Assembly: GCA_022495995.1 (NCBI GenBank)
Contig: JAFEMH010000745.1
Coordinates: 157,001 to 221,000, forward strand
Length of the DNA stretch: 64,000 nt
From: Adenophora triphylla var. japonica
Taxonomy: Eukaryota; Streptophyta; Magnoliopsida; Asterales; Campanulaceae
Reading direction: 5' to 3'
Shown here: piece after piece, positions 25,946-61,900 of the stretch
Numbering within the stretch: position 1 is the stretch's first letter
How the letters are laid out: each line of letters begins with the position of its first letter
Program-made: the position numbers and the translations under genes
Notes under the pieces: generated by a model
The model's database searches: none
Told to the model about the DNA's origin: nothing
Seen by the model: only the letters and a program-made list of their open reading frames with translations

Positions 25946-26918
25946 TGTTGGAAAAATGGTGTATTTTGAAGAAAATTAATGGATTAATTTCTAAAGGGTA
26001 ATTTTGTCAAATTACTTAAGTGGTTTAGTGTGTTTGTGAAATAAAATATTTATTTGTCTAAAATGGTTTTTGGATGAAGTAAATATAAATGCTCAAAGGA
26101 TTTGGCCCACTTATTGCTAATAAATTTTGATTTTGTAAATCAAAATTGGTTTTGGATTTTACTGAGGTGCTCGGCCGAGCAGAGTGTTAACTCGGCCGAG
26201 CATAGCATGGCAGTAAGTCCAAAGTTTCTGGAAAGCCATGCTCGGTCGAGGCATATGCTTTGCTCGGCCGAGCAGATCTGGGCAAAGCCTTGCTCGGTCG
26301 AGCAAGGTACATGACTCGGCCGAGCAGGTCCTGGACAGACATTTAATAGCCAAGTATTAAATGTGAAAAACTGAAACGGGAATCATTATGGCTAAGATTT
26401 TCGAGTTAATGGTTGTTTAATTTCGTAATAATTTTGTTTATTACATAATTAACTACTAAATTTCAGTTTTAATCCTTGGTTTTGAATTTGTTTAAATTGT
26501 TGTTTGTCAACAACAATTGATACACTTGGAAAACTTTTGGTAAACACTTTGAGTGAAAAACCTCTGCAGAAACTATCTCTTTCTCCTGCAATCCTCCTCC
26601 ATTCTCTTTGGTTGCATCTTGTCAATCATCATTTGGCCTCTTAGTTTGCATTATAGAAGAAGAGGTGATATTGTTCAAGCATAGTTCAGCTCGCCGGGAA
26701 CTTTAGGTGCAAAGTGCCCCCGGTCCGCACGTTCTATCCTGGGAGACAAGCGATCCAAGCAAACTCAAGCACACTCGGTGAGGGATCGAATATGTCTTAA
26801 GGAGACAGTGGTTTCATTGGGCTCGTGCAGAAATTTCAACAACTTCTCCTTCTGTATTTTCAGTTTTTGTTAATTATATTGTATTTATAATTTCTATAAT
26901 TGTAACACCCTTGTAACA
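25946..26918 (+). repeat. 5' LTR of copia element (973 bp)
   Basis: It pairs with the LTR at 31562-32535. Its U3 holds six CTCGGCCGAG-type palindromes (26170-26324). It ends ...cccttgtaaca. Confidence 0.9.
26170..26324. repeat. CTCGGCCGAG palindrome cluster in copia 5' LTR
   Basis: Four exact copies (26170, 26191, 26263, 26315) and two with one T substitution (26241, 26293), mostly inside the wider form TGCTCGGCCGAGCA. They sit 225-380 bp into the LTR, in U3. Confidence 0.9.
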
Positions 26919-26998
26919 ATCTTAAGACATACTCCTAATCGAGGGAGTCGAACAGATTTTTAAAAACAGAAAATACTAACTAAGTTGTTGTGTTTCAG

Positions 26999-29900
26999 AT
27001 GGCGACTAACAACAATAACGTGGAGACCCAAATTGGATCCCAAATTAGACCTCAAACTAATCCCCAAACTGGAAACGGAAGTGGCTCGACTATTGTTACA
27101 AATGCTCCTACAATCCATATCCCGACACCCCATGCAGAAAAACTCGAGAAGTTTGTTGGCCACGACTTTAAGCGTTGGCAACAAAAGATGCTTTTCTACC
27201 TCACTACCTTGCACTTGGCAAAATATCTGAAAGAGGATATGCTAAAGGTGAGTGAAGGAAAAACCGATGTTACAACCTTGGCTGCGGTTGAAACATGGAA
27301 ACATGGGGAATACTTGTGCAGAAACTATATCCTCAATTCGCTTTCAGATTCTCTTTACAATGTGTTCAATGAAAAGAAATCTGCAAAGGAATTGTGGGGG
27401 TCGTTGGACCACAAATATAAGATTGAGGATGCGGGAACAAAGAATTTCATTATTGCCCGTTTCCTTGATTTTAAGATGGTGGACAGCAAAAGTGTGAAAT
27501 CTCAAGTTGATGAGTTTCAAACTATTTTGCACGAGATTCATGCCGAGGGTATGATCATAAGTGAAAGCTTCCAAGTGGCTGCAATCATTGAAAAATTGCC
27601 TCCATATTTGAATGATTTCAAGAACTACCTTAAGCATAAGCGAAAGGAAATGGATGTGAAAGGAATAATCCTTCGGTTGAGTATTGAAGAGAACAATAGA
27701 GTCGCTGAAAACAAGTTTGTTTCTAGTGTGGCTAAGGCCAATGTGGTGGAGCATGGTCAAAGCTCAAAAGGCAAAAGAGTTGGGAAGGGAAAAGGGAAGG
27801 TTGTGACAACTTCCAAGCATTCCCACTTGGGACCAAAAGGTGGTGTTTCCAAGAAGAAGTTCTTAGGAACTTGTTATAATTGTGGCGGTGAAGGTCACAA
27901 GGCTCATGCTTGCAAGTTGCCAAAGAAGGCTCGTGAGGCAAACATGGTGGAAGGCATTGCTAGAGACGTGTCCGAGATACACCTCGCAGCTGTGATTTCC
28001 GAGGTGAATTTGGTGGGATCAAACCCAAATCAATGGTGGATTGACACCGGTGCTACTAGACATGTGTGCTCCAATAGAGACATGTTTAGTACTTTTGTTG
28101 CTAAGGAAGGCGAGAAGCTATTCATGGGGAATTCAGCCACCTCCGAGATCAAAGGAGAAGGAAAAGTGGTTTTGAAGATGACATCCGGGAAGGAGTTGAC
28201 TCTCAACAACGTGCTTTATGTGCCCGATATCCGGAAGAACTTGGTGTCCGGATCGCTTTTGATAAAGCATGGATTTTGTATTATGTTTGAGTCAAATGTA
28301 GTCACTTTGTCTAAGAGTGGAATGTTTGTGGGTAAAGGCTATGTCAATGATGGACTATTTAAGTTAAGTGTAATGGTTGTTAAATCTAAAGCTAATGATA
28401 TGAATATCTCTTCCGGTTACTTGCTTGAGTCATCTAATTTGTGGCATGGTAGACTTGGTCATGTTAATTTTGATTCTATACGTCGTTTGACAAAAGCAAA
28501 TTCTATTCCAAAGTTTAAAGTTGATTGTAAACAAAAATGTGAAATTTGTGTAGAAGCAAAATTAACAAGAAAGTCATTCCCTTCGGTTGAAATACATAGT
28601 GAACCACTTGAATTGGTTCACACGGACTTATGTGACTTTAAATCAACACAATCACGGGGCGGCAATAAGTACTTCATGACTTTTGCAGATGATGGCACAA
28701 AGTATTGCTATGTGTATCTTCTAAAAAGTAAAGATGAAGCTATAGAGAAGTTTACTCTATATAAAAATGAAGTTGAGAATCAATTAAATCGGAAAATTAA
28801 GGTGCTAAAAAGTGATAAAGGAGGTGAATATGAATCTCCATTTGAAGCAATTTGTGATCAAAGTGGAATTAAACATATAACCTCGGCACCTTATACACCC
28901 CAACAAAACGATGTTGCCGAAAGGAAAAATCGGACATTGAAAGAAATGATGAATGCCATGTTATTGAGTTTGGGATTATCGGATAACATGTGGGGGGAAG
29001 CCGTGTTGTCAGCTAACTACGTGTTAAACAAAATACCCCGAAAGAAACAAGACAAAACTCCTTATGAACTATGGCATGGAAAAATGCCAAGTTATAAACA
29101 CTTGAGAGTGTGGGGGTGTCTTGCAAAGGTAGCCATACCTCCTCCTAAAAAGGTGAAAATTGGACCTAAAACTGTTGATTGCATATTTATTGGATATGCA
29201 CATAACAGTAGTGCTTATAGATTTCTTGTGTATGAGTCAAAAATTGATGCTATACACAAAAATACTATAATGGAATCTGTGAACGTATCTTTCTTTGAGA
29301 ATATATTCCCGTGTAAGTCAAGAAATGAGGCAAGCTCATTGACTAGGGTTATAGATTCAATAGAAGAAGAACACGTTCAAGATAAAAGTGAAGAAGAAGA
29401 GGTAGAACCTCGACGGAGCAAAAGAGATAGGATTGAAAAATCCTTTGGTCCGGACTTTCTAACCTATATGGTAGAAAGCGAACCACAAAGTTACAAAGAA
29501 GCTGTTAGCTCTTCGGAAGGACCTTTGTGGAAGGAAGCAATTAAATGTGAAATTGATTCCATTTTGCAAAATCACACATGGGAACTAGTGGACCTTCCTC
29601 CGGGAAGTAAACCACTAGGATATAGGTGGATTTTCAAAAGGAAAATGAAGGCGGACAGAACAATTGATAAGTACAAGGCCCGACTTGTAATTAAAGGTTA
29701 CAGACAAAAAGAAGGCCTAGACTATTTTGACACATATTCTTCCGTCACGAGAATAACGTCAATAAGAGTTGTACTTGCAATTGCCGCATTGAGAAATCTT
29801 GAAATACATCAAATGAATGTAAAAACAGCCTTTCTAAATGGAGATTTAGAAGAGGAAATATACATGGAACAACCCGAGGGGTTTGTTGCGCGTGGACAAG

Positions 29901-31048
29901 AAAAGAAGGTGTGCAAATTATTAAAGTCATTATATGGCTTAAAACAAGCACCAAAACAATGGCATCAGAAATTTGATAATGCTATGATGCAAAGTGGATT
30001 TAAAATAAATGAGTGTGACAAATGTGTCTATACTAAAACCACGGAAAATGGCTATGTCATTTTGTGTCTTTATGTAGACGACATACTTATCATAGGGAGT
30101 TGTGATAAGATGATCAAATCCACGAAAGACGTGTTAAATTCGAAGTATGACATGAAAGATATGGGAATTGCGGACGTAATCCTTGGAGTTAAAATTTCTA
30201 GAATATCCAACGGACGTGTGTTAAGTCAATCTCATTATGTGGATAAAATTCTTGAGAAATTTAGCAAGGATGACAATGGAATGGCGAGTACTCCAATTGA
30301 CCCAAATCTTCATCTCTTAAAGAATAGAGATGAACCGGTGTCTCAATTAGAGTATTCGAGAATCATCGAAAGTCTAATGTACTTGATGAGTTGTACTAGG
30401 CCGGATATTGCTTATACCGTTAGCAAGTTAAGTCGGTATACAAGTAATCCTGGAACAAATCATTGGAAGGGTATAGTAAGAGTACTAAGGTACTTAAGAT
30501 GTACTCGTGATTTTGGATTACATTACACTAGACATCCAGCTGTGATAGAAGGATATAGTGATGCTAATTGGATATCGGATATCAAAGACTCAAGGTCTAC
30601 AAGTGGATATTTATTCACATTAGCAAAAGTGCCTATATCATGGTAATCTTCTAAGCAAACTGTTATAGCCAGATCAACCATGGAATCTGAGTTTATAGCA
30701 CTAGATAAATGTGGTGAAGAAGCCGAATGGCTACGCCAATATCTAGAAGATATTCCAAGATGGGAAAAGCCCGTGCCCGCAATTAGTATACATTGCGATA
30801 GCTAATCTGCGATTGGAAGGGCACAAAGTCATATGTATAATGGTAAGTCTAGACATATACGTCGAAGACATAATACCATTAAACAACTACTTGCAACTGG
30901 CACCATATCTATTGACTATGTAAGGTCAAAAGATAATTTGGCGGATCCGCTAACCAAAGGGTTAAGTAAAGAGATAGTTGCAAGGTTGACATTGGGAATG
31001 GGATTAAAGCCTCTTGAGAAGTTAAACACAGCAGAAAACCCAACCTAG
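26999..31048 (+). pseudogene. Ty1-copia gag-pol polyprotein (inactive)
   Basis: It starts at ATG 26999 (MATNNNNVET), with an open frame of about 1215 codons. Domains in order: UBN2-type gag (about 30-250), CCHC knuckle (CYNCGGEGHKAHAC), protease (WWIDTGATRHVC), pre-integrase (LWHGRLGHVNF), integrase (HTDLCDF, LKSDKGGEYES, SAPYTPQQNDVAERKN), RT (RWIFKRKMKADRTIDKYKAR, LYVDDILII) and RNase H. Several defects are visible. RT motif A reads HQMNVKTAFLNG, where the family has catalytic Asp (MDVKTAFL). TAA interrupts at 30644 (ISW-stop-SSKQTVIARS) and again at about 30803 (HCDS-stop-SAIG), both in the RNase H. The rest stays in frame to TAG at 31048. Confidence 0.92.
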
Positions 31049-31561
31049 CTGACTGGAGATCCCAAGATCTAGGTTCAAAGGGACAACCTAACTATTAAAA
31101 GACTTGTAGCGTCACTGTGGGGGTCAACCCTATATTCATTCCTTAAAGTGACATCCCGAGATGAATGAGGTTAAGCATATGGCTTTTAATGATTCTTATG
31201 TGAAGTAAAATGGGTTACTTAAAAGAATCACCTATGTGAGAAAGAAGTAGAGGCCGCTTCGAGGAGAATTGTGTGAGGCTCAATTCTTAGACCTTCTCAC
31301 GTAACTGTGCATTGTGATCCAGGGCCATGAATGGACACAGCTATGAGAGTTGAATTGTGTTAGGGAGATACCTGTGTAAAGTATATGATCGGCTACACAA
31401 AAAGCTAGCAGTTCAAGGACATCGCGTCTACTGATTAACGAGTAGAGTAAATATGCTTTTACAAGGGAAGGTTCAAAGGGCAAACCCCTACCTATCTTAT
31501 GCAGGTTTTTGACTGCCGGACTTTATCACCTATCCTCATAAATTTCCTTCATGTGGGGAAT

Positions 31562-32535
31562 TGTTGGAAAAATAGTGTGTTTTGAAGGAAATTAATAGAT
31601 TAATTTCTAAAGGGTAATTTTGTCAAATTACTTAAGTGGTTTAGTGTGTTTGTGAAATAAAATATTTATTTGTCTAAAATGGTTTTTGGATGAAGTAAAT
31701 ATAAATGCTCAAAGGATTTGGCCCACTTATTGCTAATAAATTTTGATTTTGTAAATCAAAATTGGTTTTGGATTTTACTGAGGTACTCGGCCGAGCAGAG
31801 TTTTAACTCGGCCGAGCATAGCATGGCAGTAAGTCCAAAGTTTCTGGAAATCCATGCTCGGTCGAGGCATATGCTTTGCTCGGCCGAGCAGATCTGGGCA
31901 AAGAGTTGCTCGGCCGAGCAAGGTACATGACTCGGCCGAGCAGGTCCTGGGCAGACATTTAACAGCCAAGTATTAAATGTGAAAAAATGAAACGGAAATC
32001 ATTATTGCTAAGATTTTTGAGTTAATGGTTGTTTAATTTCGTAATAATTTTGTTTATTACATAATTAACTACTAAATTTCAGTTTTAATCCTTGGTTTTG
32101 AATTTGTTTAAATTGTTGTTTGTCAACAACAATTGATACACTTGGAAAACTTTTGGCAAACCCTTCGAGTGAAAAACCTCTGCAGAAACTATCTCTTTCT
32201 CCTGCAATCTTCCTCCATTCTCTTTGGTTGCATCTTGTCAATCATCATTTGGCCTCTTAGTTTGCATTATAGAAGAAGAGGTGATATTGTTCAAGCATAG
32301 TTATTTCACGTAGGGAACTTTAGGTGCAAAGTGTCCCCGGTCCGCACGTTCTATCCTGGGAGACAAGCGATCCAAGCAAACTCAAGCACACTCGGTGAGG
32401 GATCGAATATGTCTTAAGGAGACAGTGGTTTCATTGGGCTCATGCAGAAATTTCAACAACTTCTCCTTCTGTATTTTCAGTTTTTGTTAATTATATTGTA
32501 TTTATAATTTATGTAATTGTAACACCCTTGTAAAA
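31562..32535 (+). repeat. 3' LTR of copia element (974 bp)
   Basis: It is nearly identical to the 5' LTR with scattered substitutions, so the insertion is neither brand new nor ancient. Confidence 0.9.
31786..31940. repeat. CTCGGCCGAG palindrome cluster in copia 3' LTR
   Basis: Five exact copies (31786, 31807, 31879, 31909, 31931) and one variant (31857). Position 31909 is exact here but CTCGGTCGAG in the 5' LTR. Confidence 0.9.
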
Positions 32536-33349
32536 AGAATTACGTGATGAGACTGACTCCTTGAAATGTGTTATGTTTGATAATAGCATTGAGAAGCTAA
32601 TAAACATAAAGGCCGTGGATTTGGCACAGATAGTAGATGAGGTTACCCTGAATAATTTTCAACATAATCTATGTTTGAATTGTGTTTTTATTCTATAAAA
32701 CTAATTTCTTAATAAATCTAAATGTAGGAAGGGTATGCAGAACCATTGCCTAGACAGCTGCGTAAAATACTTGGTAAATGTAATGTATTCCAGCTTGAGT
32801 TTAATGAGCGCAGCAGAGGCACCAACTATGAGAGTTTCACAGTGAAAAGAGTTTTGTTTGAAAGTGATATCCGTGCTCCAAACGCTGATGAGGTAATACT
32901 AGGTTGCTTCGCAAGGAAATTTTGCTCTTAGTATGTTATAAAATATAATGAATATATTAAAATCATTCTTATTTTTTGATTTCAGGAATGTAATATTGTT
33001 ACTCAACCCAATACAGTTGACATTTCTGTTAAAACACCATCTGTTGCTGAGAAAAGGAATAATCTGAAGATAAGGTCCGCTTTTCTAATTGAAATTTAAT
33101 TACTGAATTCATTTTCTGGAAAAAGAATGTTCTGAAAATAAAATTTACTTTTCTAATTGAAATGTAACAGCTGCATGTTTTTTTAGAAAAAAATATAACT
33201 CTTTCTCTTCTTATATATATTCTGATTCGTTTCATTACAACTTTAGTGAGAACACCTCTGGGCGAGTTGCAGACACGCATGAAGCGGAGAATGTCAAAGG
33301 AAAAGAAGTATCTCTAGCCAAGAAAGCAAGGAGAGGACTAGGGCTTTAA

Positions 33350-34228: not shown

Positions 34229-37200
34229 AGTATGACAAGGAAGAGACTTTGCGAAGAAATTGTTGGGAACTCTATTGAACCAGGTGATTCGATTTAATAT
34301 AGGAAGAAGAACACGTGAACAAATCTTGCAAATTTAAACTAATATGGTTTTGTTAATGATATTTTTCGTTTATTGTTGTAGGTACAATTCCTAAAGAAAA
34401 GGCAAGAGAAAATCGTGCATGCAGAAAGGCAGAGATTATCATGAAGAAAAATAAGCAAATATCTCTAAATCATGGACCATAAATTCATCTTTTGGGTAAT
34501 AGAAGAATTAGATTATTTTACTTACATAATTAGTAAATTTTATTCAGTTTATTCCGTTGCCTCCCCTGTTGCTCTTCAAACTTCAGTCTTTGTTGCTGTC
34601 TGAAATAGAGAGAAGATTTTTTTTATTGTTCTAGGTATAATTTCTAAAGAAAAGGCAAGAGAAAATCATGCACACAGAAATGCAGAGATTATCAATTAAA
34701 ATTATTACTATAATCTTATAGCTGAAATGAAAAAACTCTATGCAAAACAAAGAAGAAATGAGAGGAAGAACACAAGGGCAATTGAGCGACAAGCTGACAA
34801 CCGTCTTATAGCTAACCCTGATAAAGTTTTGCATGGTAATGCGACACCTAGAGTGCCTGCTGGAGGTAAATAGCTACGCTATGATTTAATTTGATCAGAA
34901 AGGATTTATTATACATGTCCTTATGTCCTAATATATTTTCTCTCCAGATAAACATTCAGTAGAAGTTTCTTACTATGGACTGCCTAATTTACTTGCAAAT
35001 ATTGCCATGCTATTTTTTTGGGGTCGTGAACGTGTGAAAAAGAATTTGAGGAAAACATATCCAATATATAGTTTATGTTGCAGAAATGGTAAAATTGAGC
35101 TTCCTCCTCGGCGTGAACCACCTGAGCCATTACGATCATTATTGTATGGAAATTTGGGACCAGTCTCAAGCAAATTTGCAGATAATATCCGAGCATATAA
35201 CTCCATGTTCGCGATGACATCCATGGGTGCTAAATTTGACACTTCATTAAACAACAATGGTTTTGTTTATGTTTATAAGATAAGCGATCAAAATTATCAT
35301 CAGATAGGATCTATGTTGCCCCTAGAAGGTAAATCACCAAGTTTTCTTCAGCTATATGTTTATGATACAGAGAATGAAATACAGAACCGAGTGAATGCTG
35401 TGAATCGTAGAGAGTGTAATGAGGAGATGTCTCCTGAAGTTATTCATCAATTAATTGAGATGTTGAATACTCACAATGAATTAGTTAGAGCTTTCAGAAC
35501 AGCGAGAGATTTATATAGAGAAGAAAATGCAAGGAATTTCAGCATAAAATGGGTCAAGAGAAGAGCAAATAAACAGCGACAATATTCAGCCCCAATTGCG
35601 TCTGAAATATCCATGTTAATAGTCGGGGATATGGCAACCACGGATAGAGAAAGAGACCTAATTGTTCAAAGTGCAGATGGTGTTTTGAGAAGAATTAGTG
35701 ATCTTCATCCGCTATTCATGGCATTGCAATATCCCATTCTCTTTTCGTATGGCGAAGATGGCTTCCATTTAGAAATTCCTTACATTCGGAATAATGGTCA
35801 GTGAAAGACTAAGCGGAAAAATGTAACGGCAAGAGAGTACTATGCCTATGTATTGCAGCAGAGGAATAATCAGGGCCAAGAAAGACTTCGATTTTTTGAG
35901 AAATAACCGGGGCAATTTGCGAACAGAACTATACAAAAATGTATATGATGCAGTGCAAAAAGGAGATTCAGACTCAAAGAATGTTGGAATGCGAACTATT
36001 TTGCCTGCTTCATTTACGGGAAGTCCTTGGTATATGGTACAAAATTATCAGGATGCGATGTCAATATGTCGGATTTATGGCAATCCAGATTATTTCATCA
36101 CATTCACGGCAAATCCAAATTGGAAACAGATAACAGATCACTTAGGTCAATGTGGTGGTCAAAAAGCTAAAAACAGGCCAGACATAGAATCCAGTGTGTT
36201 CAAGTTAAAATTGGAAGAAATGATTCATGATATTGTCAATAATGAAATATTTGGCAAAGTAGAAGCAGGTATAAGACTCTTTATTTTTAATATATATGAA
36301 TTTACAAAGTAATGATTGCTAGTTAATTTTGAAATGTTTTATGTGAACAGTGTTATACACAATTGAATTTCAAAAGCGAGGATTGCCACATGCACACATC
36401 ATTTTTTGGGCGAATAACGCAGCCAAGTTAACCACACCAGAGCTACTAGATGCAATGATTTCAGCTGAAATACCTGATCCTTTGACAAATCCAGTAGGTT
36501 ATGACGCAGTTACTCAGTTCATGATGCATGGCCCATATGGAAGCGCAAATCCAAATTCACCCTGCATGATTGATGGTTAGTCATTTTTTTAAAAGAAAAC
36601 GCCATATTATATATTTAAATAACTTAAATTTCAATTTAATTATTTAAATGTTTCAGGAGTTTGTTCTAAGATATTTCCAAAGGCATTTCAGAACCAGACA
36701 TTGCTTGATGAGAATGGCTACTCAGTTTATAGGAGAAGGGATACAAATGTTACAGTTGACAAAAATGGTATAACGCTTGACAATAGGTATGTTGCTGCCT
36801 ATAATAGATACTTATTGGTGAAATACCAAATCCATATAAATGGTGAAGCATGCAATAAGTCAAAGGCGACCAAGTATCTTTTCAAATATATCATCAAAAG
36901 TCCCGATAGGAGCACAATTGTTATTTCAAGCTCATATGATTTCGAAGGTGCAACTTCATCCACAAATTCAGATGGAAATGACGAAATCAAGACCTTTCTT
37001 GACTGTCGGTATATTTCAGCATGTGAAGCTATATGGAGAATATACGAGTTTCCTATCCATTATAGGAAACTGGCAGTTGAAAGATTATGTTATCATTTGG
37101 AAAATGAGCAGATGCTAATTTTCAATGATGATGACCCCCTGCCTAGAATTATTAACACAGAAAAAGCAAGGAAAACAATGTTTACAGAATGAATGGAAAT

Positions 37201-37810: not shown

Positions 37811-37983
37811 TAGACGTGGCCGGTTGAAGAAACTGCCGGTTAGCCGGTTAAAAACCGGCGGTTGAAAACCTCCAAATCCCCAACCGGAACCGAACCGCCT
37901 AACCGGCTAAACCAGTTACGGTTTAGGCGGTTTACGGTTTTAACGGTTATCTGGTTAACCTCCGGTTTGACGGTTTGGATCTG

Positions 37984-38144
37984 CTCGGCCGAGTCCTTGG
38001 TGTTGCTCGGCCGAGCAACCCTTTTAGGGTTTAGGGTTTGAGGGTTGCTCGGCCGAGTCTTTGGTGTTGCTCGGCCGAGCAACCCTTTTAGGGTTTAGGG
38101 GTTGAGGGTTGCTCGGCCGAGTCATATAGTAGTGCTCGGCCGAG
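37984..38144. repeat. CTCGGCCGAG palindromes in hAT left subterminal region
   Basis: Six exact copies (37984, 38006, 38048, 38070, 38112, 38135), paired inside an about 64-bp tandem unit, lie 170-330 bp from the left terminus. Confidence 0.9.
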
Positions 38145-38749
38145 CATATCATTTTCCAGTTAATTTTTTAACAGTTTTCGTTAACTTTGTATGTAGTATA
38201 TTAATTTTATTTTATTTTCAATTTTTTTTTAGATAGATAAGACTATTTTGAACTTAAGTTTACTACATACATTTTTTGCAAAAAGGTTTATAAAAAAAGT
38301 TATGAATTTTTTAAGAAATAAAAGTTAACGGTTTTTTGAAAAAAAGTTAACTTTTAATTTTTTTCAATTTTTTTTTGGATAAATAAGACTATTTTAGACT
38401 TAAGTTTACTACATACATTTTTTGAAAAAAGGTTTATAAAAAAAGTTATGAATTTTGAAAGAAAGAAAACTTAACTTTTTTTAAAAGAAACGAAAGTATA
38501 TAAAAGATAAAAGGGACGGTACCCTTAAATTTTATTAATCAAAATAAAATTACAAAGAGGGGGCGACCAACCTTACCCTTTTATAAATAAGGGGGGACAT
38601 TTAGGAGCCTTTACCTCAACCTAACTATTACAATTAATTAAAAATAAACCTAATCTAAAGTCTAAACTAATCTAATTAAAATAAAAATTAATCTAAAACA
38701 TCATTCATTCATCACTACTTTCTGTGGAGTCCTCGACATCGTATTGATA

Positions 38750-40913
38750 TCATGGATCCAATAGATCCTCATCATAAGGCATGTCTTGTTGCCTTTTTTC
38801 CGCTCTAACCCAATCGCCAAGTAAAAGTTGATGTTCCAAGTTTTCACTTGTTAGTTGAGAACGTCTTTCATCCAAAACATTTCCACCAACGCTAAATGCC
38901 GATTCAACCGCCACCGTTGAAGCGGGAGAGGCTAATACTTCTTTAGCAACTATGGAAAGTATAGGATAAATGTCTTTCCTTCTTGACCACCATTGTAAAA
39001 CATCAAATTCATTTGAATTTGGATCTTGATTTAATTCAAAGTTTGTAGTGAAATACGTTTCTAACTCCACGGGAAGGTTTGATGATGATGAAGATGAACC
39101 TCGAGAAGGATCATATTTTTTACTATACAAATTTGCAAAAAAACTATATGGATCCCCACTAGTAAAACTTGGTTGAGAAGTAGAGGAATCATCTTCATGT
39201 TGTTGGCTTTGAGAAGTGTTTCCATATAAGGCATTATACTCATTAAAAATGTTAATCAAATAATTTTTTGTGTCATTAACAATAATTGACGGAAGTTCAT
39301 AACTACCGTCACCATCGGGATATAATTTCATATAATAATAAGTTATAATGGACTCTAAATCATTTAATTTAACTCGGGGATCTAATAACTTTGCAACCAA
39401 GAAAAGAGACGGAATAGTGTCAAAATATTTAAGCCACTTTTGTCTCATGTTAAAAATGCATTGGTTTAAAATAGGGCATTCTTTTAAATTGTCAAAAATA
39501 GTAACAATTGCAATACAATGCTCTAGCACCAAAACAGAAGTTGGATAATAAACTCCCGAAAAAGCCAAAGTAGCAGTATTAAAAATCTTTAACAATTCAC
39601 ATAAATTAATGCATGCATTCCAATGATGAGTAAATAGAGGTTCATGATAGCCAATTGACATAAAAAATTGCGTTAGGAGATCTTTATAAGCAAAACCATC
39701 GCTTAACATTTTATAGGTGAAATTCCACCTAGTTGGAACATCGTAAGTAAAATATTTGTCCGGCACACTTTTACTTCTTAAAAACCTTATCCATTTTTTT
39801 GTATTAGAATTTTTTTTTGAAATAAATTGAAGAGCTCGTCTAATTGGCTTAACATGAGTTTCTAATGCATCTAAACCATCTCTAACACATAAATTAATTA
39901 TATAACATAAACATCTAATATGAAAAACTTACCCCCAAGTGAGGGTTGACAAACGATAATTAAATCGGGCAAACTAGCCGTATTAGCACTTGCGTTGTCA
40001 AATGAAATAGTAAATATTTTATTTAAAATACCATATTCAAGAAAAATCTCAAGCAATTTTGCACAAATATTTTCCGCGGAATGCGGTGGCTCAAAATCTT
40101 TGTAAGCAATTAATCTTTTTTGGATTTTCCATGAATTATCTATCCAATGGCAAGTAACGCCCAAATAAGTATTTCTTTGCCAATGATCACTCCAACTATC
40201 AGCACAAATTGAAACTTTATTTTCTAATTTTGATAAAACACCAATTATATCTTTTTTATATTTTTCAACCACTCTAGTAATATCACGTACGAGATTCGTA
40301 CGTGGTACTCTCGTGGCGGCGGGGTTCAAAGAAAGGCGAGCAAAATTTTCATAAAAATCACAATCCGCAAAATTAAAAGGAAGGCCTTTAACGCAAATAA
40401 ATTTGGCTAGTTCATCCCTATAAACCCACTTGTCAAATTTAAAAAGGACGAAATAAGGGGAAGACGAACCTTGTGCACCCGAACCCGAACTACGTTGTTG
40501 AAATTGTAATTGAGTTTGCGAAACGGAAATGCCAAGTTTGTCGGGATGTTTTGCCGCCAAATGCCCGTTGAGCGTCCCATGTCCTCCGCCTCTTTTGAAT
40601 GCGTAAGTCATATTACAATAGTTGCAACATGCTCGAAAATTATAATCATCCTCGGCAGTAATTTTTCTTTTGGTGAAATGGATGGCGAAGGTATCGAATT
40701 GCGACTCTCTTTCTCTAGGGGGTTGTCGTTGTCCCCGACCCCGATCACCTCCCCTAGCTCGGTTGCCCCTACCACTCCTAGCATTACCACTTTCAATTTC
40801 AACTTGTTCTTCTTCCTCATTTTGTTGAATATTTGGATTTTGATGATCAAAATCATCGTTGGGGGAGGAAGAACCAACAACGGGCTTGCCTAAATTGCTT
40901 CTTCTTTGATTTC
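38750..40913 (-). pseudogene. hAT transposase
   Basis: The minus strand reads, in order: an acidic and Gly/Arg-rich N-terminus; a BED zinc finger (ACCNYCNMTYAFKRG with HLAAKH); the central RNase H-like region (SICADSWSDHWQRNTYLGVTCHW, IFTISFDNASANTASL); YFTYDVPTRWNFTYKML; and the C-terminal dimerisation domain. That last part includes LQWWSRRKDIYPILSIVAKEVLASPASTVAVESAFSVGG, split here at natural motif breaks. One frameshift near 39930, in a run of C, interrupts FFHIRC. The N-terminal start codon is uncertain, as the ATG at 40920 is in another frame. The rest is open, so decay is recent. Confidence 0.88.
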
Positions 40914-41259
40914 AGCCATTTGTGTAAGATAAAATGAAGTTTGGAAACAAAACAGAGCTTAAAAATGGATGAAAATGGAGAAAAGCACTAATTTCGTTAG
41001 AAAACTAACTGAAAATGGGAATATATTTAACTGAAAATTGGATGAGGGTGAGAGAATATCTGAATATTTGAGAGTAGAAGAGAAAGAGTAGAGAGAAATA
41101 ATGTGGAAATAAAATGGAAGGAGGAAGGTGATATTTATAGTTAGTAAATTAGGCAAAAAAATTTTTTTTTTTAATTTTTGACTGCCCAAGTTAAAGTTCT
41201 ATTGAACATAACGGCTAGTTTTTGAAAAAGTAGCCGTTGGAATGAGTTCTGGCGTTATA

Positions 41260-41362
41260 CTCGGCCGAGCAACTCATATGACTCGGCCGAGCATGACCGT
41301 TATTGGAAATTAACACACTGGAAGGTTATGCTGGGCCGAGCAACTCATATGACTCGGCCGAG
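41260..41362. repeat. CTCGGCCGAG palindromes in hAT right subterminal region
   Basis: Three exact copies (41260, 41282, 41353) and one variant (about 41333, GGGCCGAG) lie 190-290 bp from the right terminus. This mirrors the left side. Confidence 0.9.
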
Positions 41363-41651
41363 CAAGTCAAAAACCGGCGGTTAACCGGCGGTTGACCGGT
41401 TTTTCAAAATTTCAAACCTTAACCGAACCGGCCAATTACCGGTTTCGGTTAGCCGGTTCTGGTTAACCGCCTTTGACCGGTTTGACCCGGTTTTGATCGA
41501 TTTTCAACCTCCTGGTTGACCGGTTCGGTTTATAAAATGGACACGTCTACTCCAACCTTCAGAAACAAAAATAAAATCACCACATCCATTCCTTCCAAAC
41601 ACTGAAACCTTTGACAAAAAAAAACAGAATCAACATCGTACCCGCCAACAT

Positions 41652-43020: not shown

Positions 43021-43023
43021 TTC

Positions 43024-48599: not shown

Positions 48600-49082
48600 A
48601 CCAGTGATTTCATACTGGCATTTTATAAACATGAAACTGGCACTTTTTACACGGACACTTTTATATACATGAACTGACACTCTTCACACTGGCATTCAAA
48701 AATACATAGACTGGCATTTGAAAACACATTTACCGGCACTCAAAATGCATATACGGCACTCAAAAACACTGATAATTATTTTTGCTGATATTCAAAAAAA
48801 CATGAACTGGCATTCAAAAAAATATGGACTGGCATTCAAAATTACAAGAACTGGCATTCAAAAATACATTGACACTCAGTTACACACTTACTGGCACTCT
48901 ATTATACACTAACGGACACTCAATTATACACCAACGGGCACTTGATTATACACTAACGGACACTTGATTATACACTAACGGGCCCTCAATTATACACCAA
49001 CGGGCACTTGATTATACACTAACGGGCACTCTATTATACACTAACGGGCACTTGATTAATCACCAACTGGCACTTGATTAAT
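48600..49082. repeat. Minisatellite, about 22-bp units
   Basis: About 20 degenerate units. The right half is regular ('acactaacgggcacttgattat'); the left half has the related 'aactggcattcaaaaatacatg'. The GGCACT/GGCATT core recurs every 20-24 bp. Confidence 0.85.
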
Positions 49083-49384
49083 CGTTTGTGGCCGACCCAA
49101 TAAACATCTGGAGGATTTCAATTACTATCTCCAACAACAGTAGTTGGACCTTAAGGCTTTGCTTCGAGATCAAATTGAATATTATGGTGGGGATGAACGA
49201 GTAAACAACTGGAGGATTTCAATTACTATCCCCACTTCCCAAGGCATATTTATTGGGATAGTAATCAAGAAAAAACACTGGCAAGCGATGAATGAGCACT
49301 TCCTCAAATTATCATCTCCATTAATGGTATAGCTTTTGCCATCAGTATCAAATTACTATCTCTAACAACAGTAGTTGGACCTTA
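49083..49384. other. Locally duplicated flank with Harbinger empty site
   Basis: 'ggaggatttcaattactatc' occurs at about 49110 and 49212, and 'agttggacctta' at 49143 and about 49373. The first copy, followed by 'aggctttgcttcgag', is the unoccupied version of the site used by the MITE at 49385. Confidence 0.7.
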
Positions 49385-52002: not shown

Positions 52003-52424
52003 TGAATGGTGGTGGCCGAGATCGCCGTAGTGGGAGAAATTTCACTAAACGGTATGTTGGTAGAAAATTGGGTGATGAAGTCGGCGACGGAGCCAATTTG
52101 GTCAACATGGGAGCGGGATCTAGAACGGTGATGCGATGGGTTGCAAAGAACACACAAAGGTTCCAAGCTTGTGATTGTGTGGGGCACGTGGATTCGCGCC
52201 TGTTCGGGATCGATAGTTAGCAAGCAAGTGAGCGGGGATGTGCGGGGAGGATCATTCGGAATGAAGACTCGGAGCATGGTAGAACCAACGGTTATGTTGA
52301 AGCGTAGCTCGGCTTGACTCACTTGGATAACTAGACAAAGAGGTCGGGCGCTACCAACGCAATAGTGGCCATGAAATTTGTTTCAAGAGAGGTATCATGG
52401 ATGGTTTGTCTCCGGGTGGGAGAT

Positions 52425-52877: not shown

Positions 52878-52922
52878 AGAGGTGGGAGGAGAGAGAAAGG
52901 TCAGCCGTTGATAATAGAGAAT

Positions 52923-55900
52923 ATGCCCGGCGGCGATGCATTCACGAAGACAATTTGTTCAATCTGTTACGAAGATCTCAAACCAATCGTCGAGGACCTT
53001 CAATCCATCTCCATTTGTGGCCATGTCTTCCACGAGCTCTGGTAAACCCTAGAAACTCAAATTTATAAAAGCATTGCAGTGTTTGTTTGCAAAATCACAC
53101 TACCTCTCAGACTAAAATAGCTTGAATTTCACCTTTTGAAGCAAATTCAATCATTTTTTCGAATTAATATAGGCCATTCGTCAATTAATTATTGAATGAA
53201 ATTTTAGGGATTTTAAACTACATGAGAAGTACTATGGTAAGAGACCAAGATTTACACGTTTATAAAATAGTTTATTTGAGTCATTTGACTTAGCCAAAAT
53301 GAGACTATTTGTTTGGATGGAGGAGTATTCCGCTTGGTAAAATGTAAGTATGGAGTATTTGCTATCGGTTTCGACTGCAGAGCTCCAACAGGAATACATG
53401 ATATGGTGGTCAATGAATACTAGGACCTACTTGGAGTGCGTTTCTTTTTCCTGATAAGTTCATCACTAGTTAATGCGTCTTTGGAGTTACTTCAGATGGT
53501 TATATTTGCTGGTTTCTATTTTGTACGGCTCCTTTTGTTAAAGAAACTTAGTCCACTTTCTATTGAAAGTCAACCCGTTACAACATCAAATCAAGATTCA
53601 ATACTCTCCGGTCCCCAATAAAAGAGACTCACTTACCATTTTTTGTCCATCCCATGAAATTTATGTTTCTAAAAGATGGAATAATTTTACTCCAATTTCC
53701 AAAAGGTACAATCAAATAAACACTACATCCTCGAAAAGTGTCATTGTACAATGCGGCTCATTTATTTGAATGGAGGGAGTATACAGTTATTTTGCCTTAG
53801 GCAGTATAGTTTCAAACATCAAAAGATTATCTTTTAGTTACCATTTTCTTGTTTTTGGGATTGAACTGATATTATACCAGTCTGCATGTAGCTTTTCTTC
53901 TGCACATGTATATTTGTTTGATACTCTCCTGATGGTTATAAATGTGATTCATAGTATTCAACAATGGTTTGAGTACTGCACAAATGGCAAGAAGAAAAAT
54001 TGTCCAGTATGCAAGCAGACCTGTTCGGAGTCGAATGTGAGTCGGCTTTATTTCCAGTCAGTTGGCGATCCAAATAATCCAAGCCTTTCCCAGAAATCAA
54101 ACATTCGTGAAGAAGACCCAGAAGAATTGCGTATAGAGGTCAAGAGGCTGGAGGGGAAGGTTTTAGGACTTACTTCAACGTTGGAGCGTCAACAGAAAGA
54201 TCTCAAAGACATGAATGAGGAGGTTATTTTATTTCATATTTTCAACTTTTTATCTTGTCATGTGTGATTGATTGCAATATAATGACTAGAGAAGTGCTGA
54301 TGTAAATGCTTGAAATGTCGTATAGTGCCAATAGTTGATGGTCATATTATACTAAAATGTTAAAAGATAGTGCATTTGGATGCTAATAGAAGATAGAAAG
54401 CTGTACATATCACCACCATTTTCCTGAATGGTACATACATCCATACCAGTAACTAACTAGTTAGTGCAGTGTGTTCCTTGCATGTGGTCCAATCCTTAAC
54501 TGCGTCGGCTGTTGTGATGTCGTTAGCTTTTCACAATCATGTCAACATGGCTGCTTTGTAGGTATTCGTTGAGAGTAGTTGTCATAACAATCCTCTCAAT
54601 AAAATTTCAAGTCTCAACATGTGTATTCATCAAACAATTGTATAATGGATATGTTAGAATATGAAAGAACTTTGTAAGCAATATTTATAAAAAGACTTTC
54701 AAGTTGGCATCCTAAGGTTAAGAGAGGACTCTGTAAGCGGAAGAAAAGAAGTTTTATCGATTGCGTGTCACTTCCATTAACTGGGCCTGCTAGTTGTTTG
54801 CTGTCTATTTCTTTCTTTTGTCTTTTTTCATTCTTCTTCCTACTCGTCCTTTTCTTTTAGTTTTGGCCCGGGGAAGTTTATGGGTAGCACATATTCTCTT
54901 TAACAAGGTAGGGAAATGACAAAACAAATATTTTTCATCATATGCAAAAGAATAATCTAGGAAACATCTATTGCACTAACTGTGTTTTATATTAAAGTGA
55001 AGAGAGGAATTATGTTGGTATCTATGTCGCGCATGCCACAATCAGGATAAATTTTCGTCCTTTTCGTTTTCCCCTTAGCTTTATGATTACAAGGAGCAGC
55101 TGAAGAAAGAAGCATCACTGAAGACTGATGCTTTAAAACAGATTGGAACCGTCAAACAGTTGCTTCATTTGAAGTCTCAGGTAGTTAACATGCTAATTAA
55201 TGTATGCCTATTCTGCAGGCACATGTCCCGACAAAGCTCTTTTCATGTAACTTGGTGTAAGGGTATAAACCTTTTTGTTCATTCATGTCTCAGGAACTTG
55301 ATAAGTCCACATTGGAGTCCATGAGGCTGCAAGAGAGGAGCATGGCTTTAGCCAAGGAACTTGCAGCACTCAAGTTGTAAGTTAAGCTATATGGAAGAAA
55401 TATGAAAGATTAATTTCTCCAGTTATTCCTTTAATAGCAATTGCTCAGGTTATTGTGTGGTTTTATGTAGGGTGTCTGATGTGAACTTGGAGGAAGATGA
55501 TGTCTTGAAACTCGCTTCTTTAGGTGCTGAGGGAAACACCAAAGGGACGATAGATGTTTTGAGGAAGTCACTAGTCATTCGTAACAAGTAAGATTTGAAC
55601 TTTATGCTGTTTTCTTATAATTATGCTTCTTTGCAATCCATTTTTTTTAATCAGAAGTCCAAATAGTTAGATCACGCTAATACCTTGATTTATGCATGGG
55701 CTGCACATAAGGTTGCTACGCGACTAGCATGCCTAATCACACCATCATGCACGCAGAGCAAATGATAGTAGGCTAAGCCAACCTTAAAATAGGGTTAGCT
55801 CTGCATAACCTGAATCATATGGTGTGGGCTATGAGGTCCATCATTTACTCCCTCCGTCCCGGAAAGTTCGTCCTACTTTGACTTTCATGGTCAACTCAAA

Positions 55901-58900
55901 CGAACTTTGACCATAATTTATGAAAACTTAATTATCCCTTTGCGATTCTAAAAATTGTTATTGATTCACCATTAGGATTACTAACAATCATAATTTTTAG
56001 AATTGCATAAGAATAATTAAGTTTTCATAAAATTATGGTCAAAGTTTGATTGAGTTGACCATGAAAGTTAAAGCGGGATGAACTTTCCGGGACGGAGGGA
56101 GTATGTGCTATGATAGATTCATGACTGGTCATCCATGTCATGTAATAATATGTTGCGTTTGGAATGTTGCCCTTCCCAGCAATCCAAATACAAGGACCTT
56201 GCAGGCTGTGATTTAAGTCTTTTGAATGCTTTGGTTTGAGGCAAGCTGCAGAGATCCATTACTAAGCATGGTTCTAAACTTGTAGAAAAACTAATTTAAC
56301 TTATAAAAAAGATGTTGAGTCTAGACATTCATTCTTTCAATATCAGGCATCAACTTCTTATGATAGGAAGTGGGAACATCTCTATTCAAATTTTGGAAAA
56401 GAAAGTTTTTCGTTGAAGTTGAATCTTAATAATCAACTTCTCTTCATATTGCTACAAGGTTGTAGCCTGGTGGTAGGCACTCCTCACTTGAGACCAAAGG
56501 TCTCGAGTTCGAGTCATCAATGGGGGGAATATGGGAACATATGTTGATCCTCTTAAAATTAGGGAAAAAAAAAAAAAGAGTGCAGATTCTTGTGAAACTC
56601 TTCCCTTTCGTAACATCTGGAGACCTAGATTACCTGGTGTATTTCTCTTTTGGTCATCTCTTCTAAATTTTAAAGTAACACGGCATAACAAGACAACCCT
56701 GAATACCTGGCATTGCAGTGTTTTTGACTCATTTTCGAAAAGTATTTTCCAAAATGTGAGTAAAAAAAGTATTGCCCTAAATAACCAAATTTGTAAAAAA
56801 ACGCAGTTAGCAACCGCGTTTTTAAGGCTTCCTCAACTTAAAATGCAGTTGTCAACCTCGTTACTTAAAAAACACGCAGTTGTCAACCCCATTACTTAAA
56901 AAAAAATGCAGTTGGCAACTGCGTTTTTTTTAGGTAATTTAGAAATCGCGGTTGCCAAATGCGTTTCTTCCAAGCTTGGTTATTTTGGGCAATACTTTTT
57001 AAAGTAATGACATTTTGGAAAAACTTTCAAAGAAGTGTTATTTTGGTTTTGCTGGGCCTCATGTATGTTCTTTTGCCACTGGAAAATGGAGAGGCTGTTT
57101 TTGTTGATCAAATAGTGAGCTCCATGTCGTGACAACACATCCTCACTTGCCCTATCAGAACCTAGGTATAAGAAAGAAAATAAAAATAGTGACTTTACTA
57201 AATTTGATGGGCCAAAACCTCATGTAAGAACAGTATTTCTGGGCACGAATTTTGATGAGTTTTTAATATCACGCTACTCCATAGAATGCCGTGCCATTAT
57301 AGTAATACAAGAGCAGGTTTATGCATGAAGCGTTTAGTATTGAATATCGGTATATGATGTATACACAGCGGAATAATTTAAAGAGACTCGCTTAACGAAT
57401 CTCTAATGAGACTTTCAAGGGAAATCTCAAAACCTATAACAACTCACCACCCTTGGAATCCACCAAAAGGATATGGAATTGGAAGTAATGTTCGCCACTA
57501 ATCGGAATCCACCGAATAGATAAGAACCATTAAAAAAACACAACCCAAAGTTAAACTTTAACTTAGATTAATAACCGAAAAGGGACAGTAATTGCAAAGC
57601 AATAATTTGATTATATTAAACTTGATCTATCTTTACAATAAACGGATTGAAGTATTTATAAACCTATAAATGTTTGAAGAGACACAAATATGAATCAGCA
57701 CCAATAAACAACAGACATGACTTTTACAAACAAACACCAGTTCACGAACAGACACCAGCGCCGCCTTCGGGAACCTCGGTCGAGGCACTGAGCCGCCGGC
57801 CGAGCAACCGCTCCCTTGCCAGGCACTTTCTGCCTCGCCCGAGCAAAGCCATTTTGAAAACCCAAGTTTACGCCTTTGTTCCCCTCGGCAGAGCGCGAAC
57901 CTGCTCGGCCGAGCACCCTTGCTTCAGGCTTGTGTGGCTTTGTAACACCCAAATCGTTATGAGCCATGCCATCTTGATCCCCAAGTCGTTCAGCCGCAAC
58001 ACGATCTACATCATGCGCCCCCTCTTGAAAAGGATTCGTCCCCGAATCCATGTTATCATAAAGAAGTCTATCTGGGTAGAAAATAACCAGAAACAATCGC
58101 TCATAGAACAAAAGGATCATCACCAAGTAACCCATTGCGATGAGTATCAAAAGATGCCGCTTGTCGGCATGTCCCAATAATCCACAATCCTTCCTTGTGA
58201 TTTGGATTGACAAAATAAAACTGCCGTAAATTAGAACCCCAAAGTGCATGTATGTGATTAAGGATTGCCTTTCGATTCAAATATTTCAAGGGCTCGTGAT
58301 CCGGATGGAGGACGAACTCACGAACCATAAAAACCGTAGTATCACTATCAATGACCTTCCCTTTAGTTTGAAAGATGTGGGGATGTTTCGGATCGTCATC
58401 TTCACAAGGGGTTGTCAACAAAAGTCGTCGTACCACAAGAGACTCATGGTCATTTTGCACGTCCATCTCCGCATTAAGATTTATCACATGGTCTTCATCA
58501 TCTACTTCGTCATTTCGGTCTACCATGTTGACTCCTCGTCTCATAGGGCATTGACTAGCCATGTGCCCCTGTTGTAAATACCTAAAACACTTATCACTAA
58601 AAGTTTTAGCGTAAGGGTTCTGATTTTGATTAGTCGTGTTGGTGTTACGTCTAACCGGGCGATTCTGAACATCAGTGTGGGCCGCCTGCTGCCCTTCATT
58701 TTGACATGTTTCCACAACCTGTGCATTCTCCGAACCCGTCACCGTACTAGACTCAGTTTCTGGATTCTTAGAACTCGAAGAAGGTGTTGTAGAAAAATTC
58801 CTGTATGACTGTTGCCTCTCGACCTTCTTGGCACGAGTAATAACTTCACTCACAGATCGGCTAGCAAATAATTCCACCTGAGTCTTAATGCCGACTCTTA

Positions 58901-61900
58901 GACCACTAATGAATCTTGCAACTTCTTGCGATTCTGATTCATCCAAATCTGCCCGTGCTGATTGGGCATAAAAATCGTGGGCATAATCTTCAACCGAACG
59001 AGCGCCCTGTTTTAGGTCCAAAAAGGCCTGATATGTCACTTGTTCATAATCATCCGACAAAAAGTGAGATTGTAATTCCCTCTTCATCCTAGCTCAAGAA
59101 CGAATAGGTGCTTTATTTTTACGATGTCGCTTCTTACATAATTGTTCCCACCATGCCGATGCTCCGTCACGTAGTTTATATGCTACGTAAGGCACCTTTC
59201 TATCATCTTCAACCTGCATCAAGTCGAAGAATTTCTCAACCTCTGCAAACCAATCCACGAACTCATTCATCTTCAAATTTCCAGAAAAAGATGGAATATC
59301 CGCCCTAATTTTAGGACGTTGATCGTACCGAGGTGCTTCTATGTTCTCTTCTTCTTCTTGATCAGAATCTTCTTCAGCAACCGGTCCATCATGGTGGACA
59401 TTATTTCCTCGACGATTTGCCCGATTCTGTGGGTTGACGTCCACCTACTCGCATCTGAACTAATGCTGCAAGCAGTTCTGCATGTTGACGATCGCTACGT
59501 TCTCTGGCCGCTTGTTCTTGCTGTGCCATACGTTCTAGAATAGCTGCGATGTCACCGTTGTTTCCTCCATTGTTTGCCATCTTCTCGTCGGAGAACCCCA
59601 AAGATTGTCCGATTTCTGATACCAAATGATGTATACGCAGCGGAATAATTTAAAGAGACTCGCTTAACGAATCTCTAATGAGACTTTCAAGGGAAATCTC
59701 AAAACCTATAACAACTCACCACCCTTGGAATCCACCAAAAGGATATGAAATTGGAAGTAATGTTCGCCACTAATCGGAATCCACCGAATAGATAAGAACC
59801 ATTAAAAAGTCACAACCCAAAGTTAAACTTTAACTTAGATTAATAACCGAAAAGGGACAGTAATTGCAAAGCAATAATTTGATTATATTAAACTTGATCT
59901 ATCTTTACAATAAACGGATTGAAGTATTTATAAACCTATAAATGTTTGAAGAGACACAAATATGAATCAGCACCAATAAACAACAGACATGACTTTTACA
60001 AACAAACACCAGTTCACGAACAGACACCAGCACCCTTCAGGAACCCCTCGGCCGAGGCACTGAGCCAGCTCGGCCGAGCAACTGCTTCCCTTGCCCGAGC
60101 ACTTTCCTGCCTCGCCCGAGCAAAGCCATTTTGAAAACCCAAGTTTCTGCCTTTGTTCCCCTCGGCCGAGGCACCGAACCTGCTCGACCGAGCACTCTTG
60201 CTTCAGGCTTGTGTGGCTTTGTAACACCCGAATCGTTATGAGCCATGCCATCTTGATCCCCAAGTCGTTCAGCCGCAACACGATCTACATCAGTATACTA
60301 TTGTGACACCTTGATAGAGGTATTTCAAGTTTGGCTCGGAATTCCACCAAGTAGTGCTGGTGGCGCTAAAGCTATTCAAATAATTTGCTCAAATAGTAAC
60401 TTGGTCCACATTATCACTAACAAAAAGGTTAAGGAAGAATAATATGTGATAGAATACTTGTTTATGTTAGCTTAAAGTGCGGCTACTGTAATCAAAACAA
60501 GTTATGGCTTTTTGTTGAATCTCAATTTGAATGGAATTGTTGCCCTGCTGTTAGTTATTTCCTCTTTGTAGGGATGCTGGTGTTTCGGCTCTATGATATC
60601 TTTTAACTATATGGAAGTGTATCTGCTCACTTCTGCAAATTTTCTTTATTATCCTTGTAATTGTTATGTGTATATGTTTTTCTTTCTACAGGAGTTACAA
60701 AGAATTGATTTCAAAGTGCAGTACTCTAGGAAGAGGAGAGGCACGTTCTCTTCATAAACTTGAAAAGGCCAATGAAAAGATAGTAAAGCTGAAGGTAAGT
60801 TCTTGAACAGTCTTACGAGTTACTCCCTCCGTCCCGAAATGAATGTCTAAAAAATATTCAAATTTGCCACAATGCCAGGCAAGGATCCAGGAGTTGGAGA
60901 CAGCTATGGAGATGGAGGAAAATGAAGTTTTGAGAGCCTTAACAAGCAATAAAACTACTTCTACACTGAACAAACTGAAGGTTCTGGGATCTGATTCAAA
61001 GGTTTCAGCTCTCAACAAGTGTTCTATGGAAGATAAATTGAGGGAATCTTCTGTATTAAAGGAAGCCTTAGATGAAGCAGGAAGCACTCCTGACATGTTT
61101 TGCTCCAGGAAAACTAAAAGGTTAAAACACTCCAATGATGTCAGCACCAATAATAATGGCGATTATGACCAGAGCATACGACCCTATATTTCAATTGATG
61201 AGGAGATATCCGAGGCTTCTAAATTGCCAGACTTTTCTCGTTTTGATTCAATACCTCGAGCCATTGCAGATGCAGCTACCAAAGGTTGCTATTTTTCGAG
61301 ACCAGAAGAAGAGTCTCAGCGAAAAAATGTAGCCCAGCAGCATGAGTCAAGTAAAATCGATGGCGTTTTAGGTTCAAGGAATGCTTATAAGGGCCAGGCA
61401 CTTACTAGTTCAGAAGAGGATGTGACGGTAATTGAAAAGAGTAAACAAGATCGGCCCTTGCTTAACATCACTAAAGAAAATTCACCTGTCATTCCAATTC
61501 TTCGAGAAGGTATGCTTTCTCGTTTGCAATTTGTACGGGAATTTATGTGTTATTAGAAGATTCTTTTCTTCCCTTACCCCAAAAAAGTTATACCTAGTGT
61601 TGGACTCTCTAAATTACTACTCCCTCCGTCCCCATAAAGATAGTCCCACTTTTTTAGGAATTGATTTGATTAAATTTTGACTAGAGTTTTTATTCAAATG
61701 AAAGTCTAAAAAATGTTATTAGTAGTACTTATAATGGTGACCAATAACAAATATTAGAATTTCATTAGGATAATTAGCCGTTCCTACATCTTCACTTAAA
61801 GTTCAATCAAATGATCCTCTTAAAAGTGGGACTATATAAGGAACGGAGGGAATTTGATTATATAAATTGCATTTTATCACCTGACTAAGAAAAATGCGTG

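Follow-up and report, generated by a model that had tools for sequence, protein, structure and literature searches.

The window considered here is a stretch of 64,000 nucleotides from Adenophora triphylla var. japonica, positions 157001-221000 of contig JAFEMH010000745.1 (C745), in an assembly of 2.48 Gb. It contains three transposable elements (TEs) in which a 10-bp palindrome, CTCGGCCGAG, is repeated in arrays, namely a copia and a gypsy retrotransposon, each with long terminal repeats (LTRs), and a hAT DNA transposon. The elements and their arrays are as follows (ORF, open reading frame; spacings in bp).

25946..26919, plus strand: copia 5' LTR (3' limit approximate)
26170..26200, plus strand: first palindrome pair of the copia 5' LTR, spacing 21
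26241..26272, plus strand: copia 5' LTR, pair 2, CTCGGTCGAG and CTCGGCCGAG, spacing 22; the word TTCTGGA starts 15 bp ahead
26293..26324, plus strand: copia 5' LTR, pair 3, CTCGGTCGAG and CTCGGCCGAG, spacing 22
26990..30646, plus strand: copia gag-pol ORF, an open frame with the domains RVT_2, gag and rve
31562..32533, plus strand: copia 3' LTR (3' limit approximate), with pairs at 31786-31816, 31857-31888 and 31909-31940
37811..41549, minus strand: hAT element, terminal TAGACGTG, transposase on the minus strand
37984..38144, no strand: subterminal array at the left end of the hAT, with three pairs at spacings of 22, 22 and 23
38750..39766, minus strand: hAT transposase ORF (Dimer_Tnp_hAT, hAT-like RNase-H)
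41134..41139, minus strand: TATAAA; in the transposase sense it follows the hAT right array by 121 bp
41260..41362, no strand: subterminal array at the right end of the hAT, on the upstream side of the transposase; two 22-bp pairs separated by 49 bp, CTGGA lying between them
57355..58013, minus strand: left copy of the gypsy LTR; its array at 57775-57913 is decayed and has 1 exact site
59627..60292, minus strand: gypsy LTR, right copy (5' LTR of the minus-strand element)
59927..59932, minus strand: TATAAA; in the element sense it follows the gypsy array by 115 bp
60047 and 60069, no strand: gypsy array (60047..60192), pair with spacing 22
60090 and 60111, no strand: gypsy array, pair with spacing 21, both sites degenerate (2 and 1 mismatches)
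60161 and 60183, no strand: gypsy array, pair with spacing 22, second site with 1 mismatch

A sequence-only reading of the window had reported about 22 exact palindromes confined to TEs, and a recount bore this out: 22 exact copies of CTCGGCCGAG were found where that reading had placed them, all inside the three TEs and none outside, and 100 dinucleotide shuffles gave 0. The copia LTRs held 4 and 5 of these copies, the hAT element held 9 (6 + 3), and the gypsy LTRs held 1 and 3. When one-mismatch copies were counted as well, the copia element had 6 sites per LTR and 12 in total. Near-copies in the window numbered 9 with one mismatch and 8 with two mismatches; several of the latter fell outside TEs and were probably chance occurrences. 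Most of the palindromes had also been said to extend to the 14-mer TGCTCGGCCGAGCA, but the exact extension was present at only 8 of the 22 sites. With up to 3 mismatches, TGCTCGGCCGAGCA was found at 27 places in the window, compared with 0.53 expected.

The LTRs of the window copia and gypsy elements were 96.7% and 95.8% identical, respectively. The gypsy element is short, has a 5-bp target duplication (GTATA) and contains a Retrotrans_gag domain. The hAT element, whose ends read TAGACGTG...CACGTCTA, carried palindrome repeats at both transposon ends; no matching 8-bp duplication was found at the ends of the window copy, and the 8-bp target duplication ATTTTAAG was present at the hAT copy L020. 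In a protein search, the named relatives of its transposase were mostly from Lamiales (Dorcoceras, Perilla, Orobanche and Salvia; 36-47% identity), with further matches in Xanthoceras and Bidens and a best match overall of 73% identity. The gaps between the pairs of the hAT left array (38016-38111) held TTTAGGG-like, telomere-type repeats, which presumably recall the telo-box elements of plant promoters.

Abundance, spacing and a second dyad in the genome

The sharing of the palindrome across superfamilies, claimed from the window, was found to be real and to extend genome-wide. In the 2.48-Gb genome, CTCGGCCGAGNA occurred 23,746 times on the forward and 23,916 times on the reverse strand, compared with 660 and 648 occurrences of the reversed control pattern, which was a palindrome of the same composition (one palindrome may count on both strands). 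The palindrome word was therefore ~36 times commoner than the control. The genomic places listed were the first ones on the first contigs and thus represent a sample in which copies of one family recur. Among these matches, the first 100 motif places formed 14 clusters on two contigs other than that of the window; 13 of the 14 clusters were arrays in TE copies, and the remaining one was a lone 10-mer in L015. This result spoke against a recombination confined to the window locus, an origin that would have refuted the sequence-only reading. Six other 10-kb stretches (L023-L028, 60 kb in total, too small for a density estimate) contained no exact copy and one copy with one mismatch.

Four additional loci chosen from the pair listing added the families copia5 and gypsy3. 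The sampled carriers then comprised nine LTR families (five copia, Athila and three gypsy) and one hAT family; the three superfamilies named earlier were thus too few, since five copia families, Athila and another gypsy group were present besides hAT. Families were assigned by Pfam matches (copia for L010 and L016, Athila for L017 and L033, gypsy integrase for L021), by LTR pairs and by likeness to the window elements. L009 was assigned to copia2 because its DNA resembles that of the window copia and because it has a zinc knuckle and a gag match, the latter below the Pfam cut-off. The examined stretch of gypsy3 (L031) had no coding domain, and its label comes from LTR likeness (35-39 bp at 87-89%); the orientations of gypsy3 and copia5 (L029) were inferred from likeness to the window elements. 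The LTR pairs of nine elements were 92-98% identical, and therefore most insertions were fairly recent. Two separate arrays lay within direct-order repeats in the Athila-type copies; the distance between them was ~1.8 kb in both L017 and L018, but 3.4-3.9 kb in L033. A 600-bp non-autonomous hAT derivative (L012, 4674-5276) retained palindromes at both ends.

The palindromes were found to be paired at a nearly constant distance. Exact pairs of CTCGGCCGAG 10-40 bp apart numbered 12,073 in the genome versus 1 for the reversed control; among the 50 distinct pairs listed, the spacing was 22 bp in 45, 21 bp in 4 and 40 bp in 1. At 41-70 bp there were 8,699 exact pairs versus 1. For the core CGGCCG alone, 42,244 pairs were counted versus 2,633, and 50 of the 61 core-only pairs listed were spaced by 21-23 bp. 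In a set of 19 arrays from ten families, in which a site could differ from one of the two dyads described here at up to 2 positions, 60 of the 92 adjacent distances were 20-23 bp, and 48 were exactly 22 bp. The other 32 distances were 30-31, 40-42, 49-53, 71-75 or 94 bp, and each array had 3 to 8 sites.

The commonest unit was palindrome-22-palindrome-49/50-palindrome-21/22-palindrome. This four-site unit, with some sites degenerate, was present in copia families 1-5, Athila, gypsy families 1-3 and the hAT right end. At a fixed distance before the third palindrome, CTG was found in 9 of the 10 families, and CTGGA occupied this inter-pair position in 6 of the 10; neither figure was reached in 10,000 base shuffles. 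When each lineage was represented by a single family (copia3, Athila, gypsy2 and hAT), CTG was present in 4 of 4, which was reached in 1 of 10,000 shuffles. When the palindromes were masked, BLAST similarity between superfamilies disappeared. The earlier statement that the carriers share no other sequence therefore held for such alignments but not for the spacing and the short spacer words, which are common to them.

A second dyad, CACGGCCGTG, differs from CTCGGCCGAG by a symmetric change at positions 2 and 9, one in each half-site. Pairs of CACGGCCGTG numbered 5,165 in the genome versus 0 for the control; among the 50 listed, 49 had a spacing of 21-23 bp and 1 of 24 bp, and the spacers of most of those listed were of the form CA...GA or its reverse complement. 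Pairs of CCCGGCCGGG were absent from the genome (0). In two lineages, relatives with the opposite dyad were found. The copia copy L034 (LTR identity 97.8%) had mostly CACGG and L009 mostly CTCGG, and the two were 86.6% identical over 2.4 kb; Athila L033 had mostly CACGG and L017-L019 mostly CTCGG, with most aligned pieces 73-82% alike. The switch was incomplete: L034 retained one CTCGACCGTG, L009 held some CACGG sites, L033 had AGCGGCCGTG sites, and both forms were mixed in L010 and L030. The asymmetric third form AGCGGCCGTG recurred 22-23 bp from CACGGCCGTG in Athila-like copies (L033 and the core-pair listing).

Copies of CTCGGCCGAG in array context comprised 122 exact and 60 one-mismatch copies. 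Of the changes in the latter, 30 of 60 were at the two central bases and 16 of 60 at one of the four CpG bases, 10 of these changes being transitions; because related copies share mutations, this distribution indicates a tendency and not a rate. CpG is expected to be the most mutable site. Since the changes concentrate at the centre, the fixed part of the palindrome is CTCG..CGAG.

The motif had been said to lie where regulatory proteins act, and this was true of many arrays, downstream of which a TATA box was present. With one chosen array per family, TATAWA was found 63-136 bp downstream of the array on the sense side in 8 of the 10 families, compared with 9.8% of random places. Over all 19 arrays, TATAWA was present 60-140 bp away on the sense side of 11 and on the antisense side of 1. 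The TATA box beyond the hAT right array is likely to be the transposase promoter. The 21-23 bp pairing, the second dyad CACGGCCGTG, the downstream TATA box and the Sirevirus precedent discussed below had all been missed by the sequence-only reading.

A putative dimeric host factor and the alternatives

Symmetric halves that change together, a two-turn spacing, a degenerate centre and a downstream TATA box are expected of a dimeric, paired DNA-binding protein. The arrays may therefore be read, with a probability of about 0.6, as promoter-upstream protein-binding arrays for a putative dimeric host factor. A common host factor had been among the explanations proposed from the window; a common DNA-binding factor appears to be the best fit, but the factor itself was not found. 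According to the proposed mechanism, a protein dimer would read the 10-bp unit C-W-C-G-N-N-C-G-W-G, which in most cases is flanked by CA on one side, and two dimers would lie side by side on one helix face, two turns (21-23 bp) apart, possibly in a cooperative manner. The usual unit would consist of two such pairs ~49-50 bp apart with the word CTG(GA) between them. We infer from the sequences that the DNA-binding protein is most likely host-encoded, perhaps by related host genes with two specificities, for CTCGG and CACGG half-sites. Different TE superfamilies would have retained the site or converged on it, and the effect of binding would presumably be positive, aiding transcription or keeping the promoter accessible.

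A wider proposal seems doubtful, namely that a trans-acting genome-wide system, possibly an activator or anti-silencing family with two specificities, is exploited by unrelated TEs through one cis-code, with lineages switching most of an array between the specificities. If a promoter code is common to copia, gypsy and hAT elements, one factor could control the activity of unrelated TEs. Silencing or activation of unrelated TEs could then be coupled, and tens of thousands of paired binding sites would be scattered in the genome. Because pairing is strictly at 22 bp and the half-sites change symmetrically, the idea of binding can be put to a direct test.

Several observations weigh against binding upstream of promoters. 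The range of 60-140 bp was fixed after the distances had been seen, and 8 of the 19 arrays, a list that left out the hAT left arrays, had no TATAWA in this range on the sense side. Within 300 bp on the sense side, TATAWA was absent from copia1 (the window element) and copia4. No promoter role is evident for the hAT left array, which is found at the opposite end of the transposase gene. When gypsy1 replaced gypsy2 as the representative, the best common 3-mer was shared by only 3 of 4 lineages (326 of 10,000 shuffles), as was CTGGA (1 of 10,000). Helical phasing of the gaps between pairs was not established: the 32 collected adjacent gaps gave R = 0.70 (0 of 5,000 uniform draws), but phasing was weak on 50 genome-wide listed distances (R = 0.26 at 10.5 bp). 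Moreover, the counts are not independent, since the copia families are related to one another, as are the gypsy families, and copies share mutations.

An unlikely alternative is that the arrays act as RNA or single-strand hairpins, folding in read-through or 3'-LTR transcripts from which the host makes small RNAs or whose fold the element uses. All 7 window stretches of 110 nt folded better than shuffles (z from -3.05 to -10.26), with 1 of 200 shuffles matching the native fold in one stretch and 0 of 200 in the other six, and 6 of the 7 were below -45 kcal/mol; palindrome clusters of maize Sireviruses show an excess of small RNAs, according to the available part of PMC10760457. However, every repeated palindrome would fold in this way, and the fold is therefore not independent evidence for hairpins. 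Hairpins require neither palindromic units nor a 21-23 bp spacing nor a position upstream of TATA, and the hAT right array, being upstream of its own TATA box, would be outside the normal transcript. By eye, the spacers had no regular complementarity across families, although the copia1 fold does run through spacers.

It is quite unlikely that the arrays are sites for recruitment of host silencing by RNA-directed DNA methylation (RdDM), by analogy with the REM-GDE1-CLSY motifs of Arabidopsis. There, as the accessible text of PMC12270911 describes, repeated DNA words are recognized by REM proteins of the host, which in turn recruit Pol IV complexes, and the present arrays do bear CpG. For a site that would be a liability to the element, however, it is odd that the arrays are kept in rather recent insertions (LTR identity of 96.7% in the window copia, 95.8% in the window gypsy and 97.8% in L034) and that the CpG positions are less variable than the centre.

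The exchange of one regulatory module among TEs by recombination or template switching, i.e., descent rather than repeated selection, had also been proposed from the window, and we consider it improbable. The four-site layout and the CTG(GA) word in the same register across superfamilies are consistent with it, as is the 11-mer CCAAGTTTCTG, which copia and gypsy copies have at an equal place in the 39-bp spacer. These copia and gypsy spacers agreed at 16 of 39 positions (reached by 479 of 20,000 shuffles), and the hAT and Athila spacers at 20 of 39 (90 of 20,000). However, agreement was only 14 of 39 for copia and hAT (7,548 of 20,000) and 8 of 39 for gypsy and Athila (13,045 of 20,000), and the blank masked-palindrome comparison leaves the superfamilies sharing only palindromes and short spacer words, so that a long module was unsupported. 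In addition, exchange alone would not account for retention.

Copying of transposase-binding subterminal repeats of hAT into LTR elements would agree with the arrays at both hAT ends and their retention in the 600-bp derivative L012, but it is highly improbable, given that nine LTR families and one hAT family were sampled as carriers, that the CTCGG/CACGG difference was observed in LTR lineages and that a cut-and-paste transposase would offer an LTR element no evident gain.

Comparison with described palindromes and repeated words

Judged by their sequence, the arrays match in kind the RM boxes of Sireviruses. The available part of PMC2829016 (Bousios et al. 2010) describes these as LTR palindromes located upstream of TATA; 12 of 13 have a CGG-CCG core, and they are reported to be Sirevirus-specific in 13 elements that mostly had each its own palindrome. 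Like the present arrays, RM boxes are short, repeated, CpG-bearing palindromes with that core; they were proposed to be regulatory and are present in many copies in the first half of the LTR. RM boxes number at least eight per element, whereas the sites counted here were 6 per LTR or 12 per element in the window copia, one-mismatch copies included, and 3 to 8 per array. Both CTCGGCCGAG and CACGGCCGTG have the CGG-CCG core, and a cluster shortly upstream of TATA was found in 8 of 10 families, including the LTR-less hAT. Restriction to Sireviruses was not observed, as arrays were also present in Athila, gypsy and hAT. Unlike RM boxes, one 10-mer (with one variant) is common here to Athila, gypsy, hAT and copia elements that lack the Sirevirus tract near the 3' LTR, and the fixed 21-23 bp pairing is not described for RM boxes in the available portion of that paper. 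The same portion gives as the mark of the genus a polypurine tract, AGGGGGAG, which lies 10 bp ahead of the 3' LTR and usually occurs in several copies. Near the 3' LTR, AGGGGGAG was found in 0 of 7 copies of copia families 1, 2, 3 and 5 (copia4 was left out); one copia copy had it once, 5.3 kb from the end. The strict 22-bp pairing and the symmetric change of half-sites also speak to an issue left unsettled in 2010, namely whether such palindromes are peculiar to the Sirevirus genus or are used by TEs in general.

A partial precedent for sharing is the maize Copia palindrome CACCGGACNNNGTCCGGTG, which, according to the accessible portion of PMC10760457, is at the same time the most frequent motif of structured Helitron regions. 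As here, one palindrome occurs in an LTR group and a DNA transposon group; its sequence is different, and that portion describes no pair grammar. Capture of Sirevirus pieces by Helitrons might explain the maize case. The VANC21 target YAGTATTAY is likewise a dense short word; as presented in the available part of PMC5735166, it has a high density in the non-coding DNA of VANDAL21, is bound by that element's own protein and is thought to co-evolve with its binder, with targets differing between related TEs. Unlike the present palindrome, it is dense in one TE family and forms same-orientation tandem repeats, not a dyad. The REM/GDE1 motif of CLSY3-CLSY4, TTTTGCTTATNTTTTGCTTAT, is described in the accessible text of PMC12270911 as a repeated word at small interfering RNA loci that is read by host factors. 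It also has a fixed spacing, but it is a non-palindromic direct repeat every 11 bp at far fewer loci.

In a literature search over 5.39 million papers, the exact word CTCGGCCGAG occurred in 11, none of which dealt with TEs, as judged by titles and the beginnings of abstracts, and no report of such sharing was found in a search whose scope excluded most subscription papers; the available portions of PMC3601003 and PMC5311732 contained nothing on shared palindromes. As far as could be seen, four features are new: the carriers, their use of a single word, the strictness of the pairing and a second dyad that is likewise paired.

Other features of the window

ORFs at 53770-54267 and 60843-61556 resembled by eye the exons of a RING-type (TRAIP/NOPO-like) host gene, and the gypsy element may therefore sit in an intron; a protein search with the ORF at 60843-61556 gave no match. 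Just left of the hAT element (35007-37192), ORFs resembled parts of a Helitron helicase, and the one that was scanned had no Pfam match. An unrelated tandem repeat with a 22-bp period and nine register copies was found at 48831-49102, near a pair of inverted repeats of 230 nt (46523-46752 and 48093-48322).

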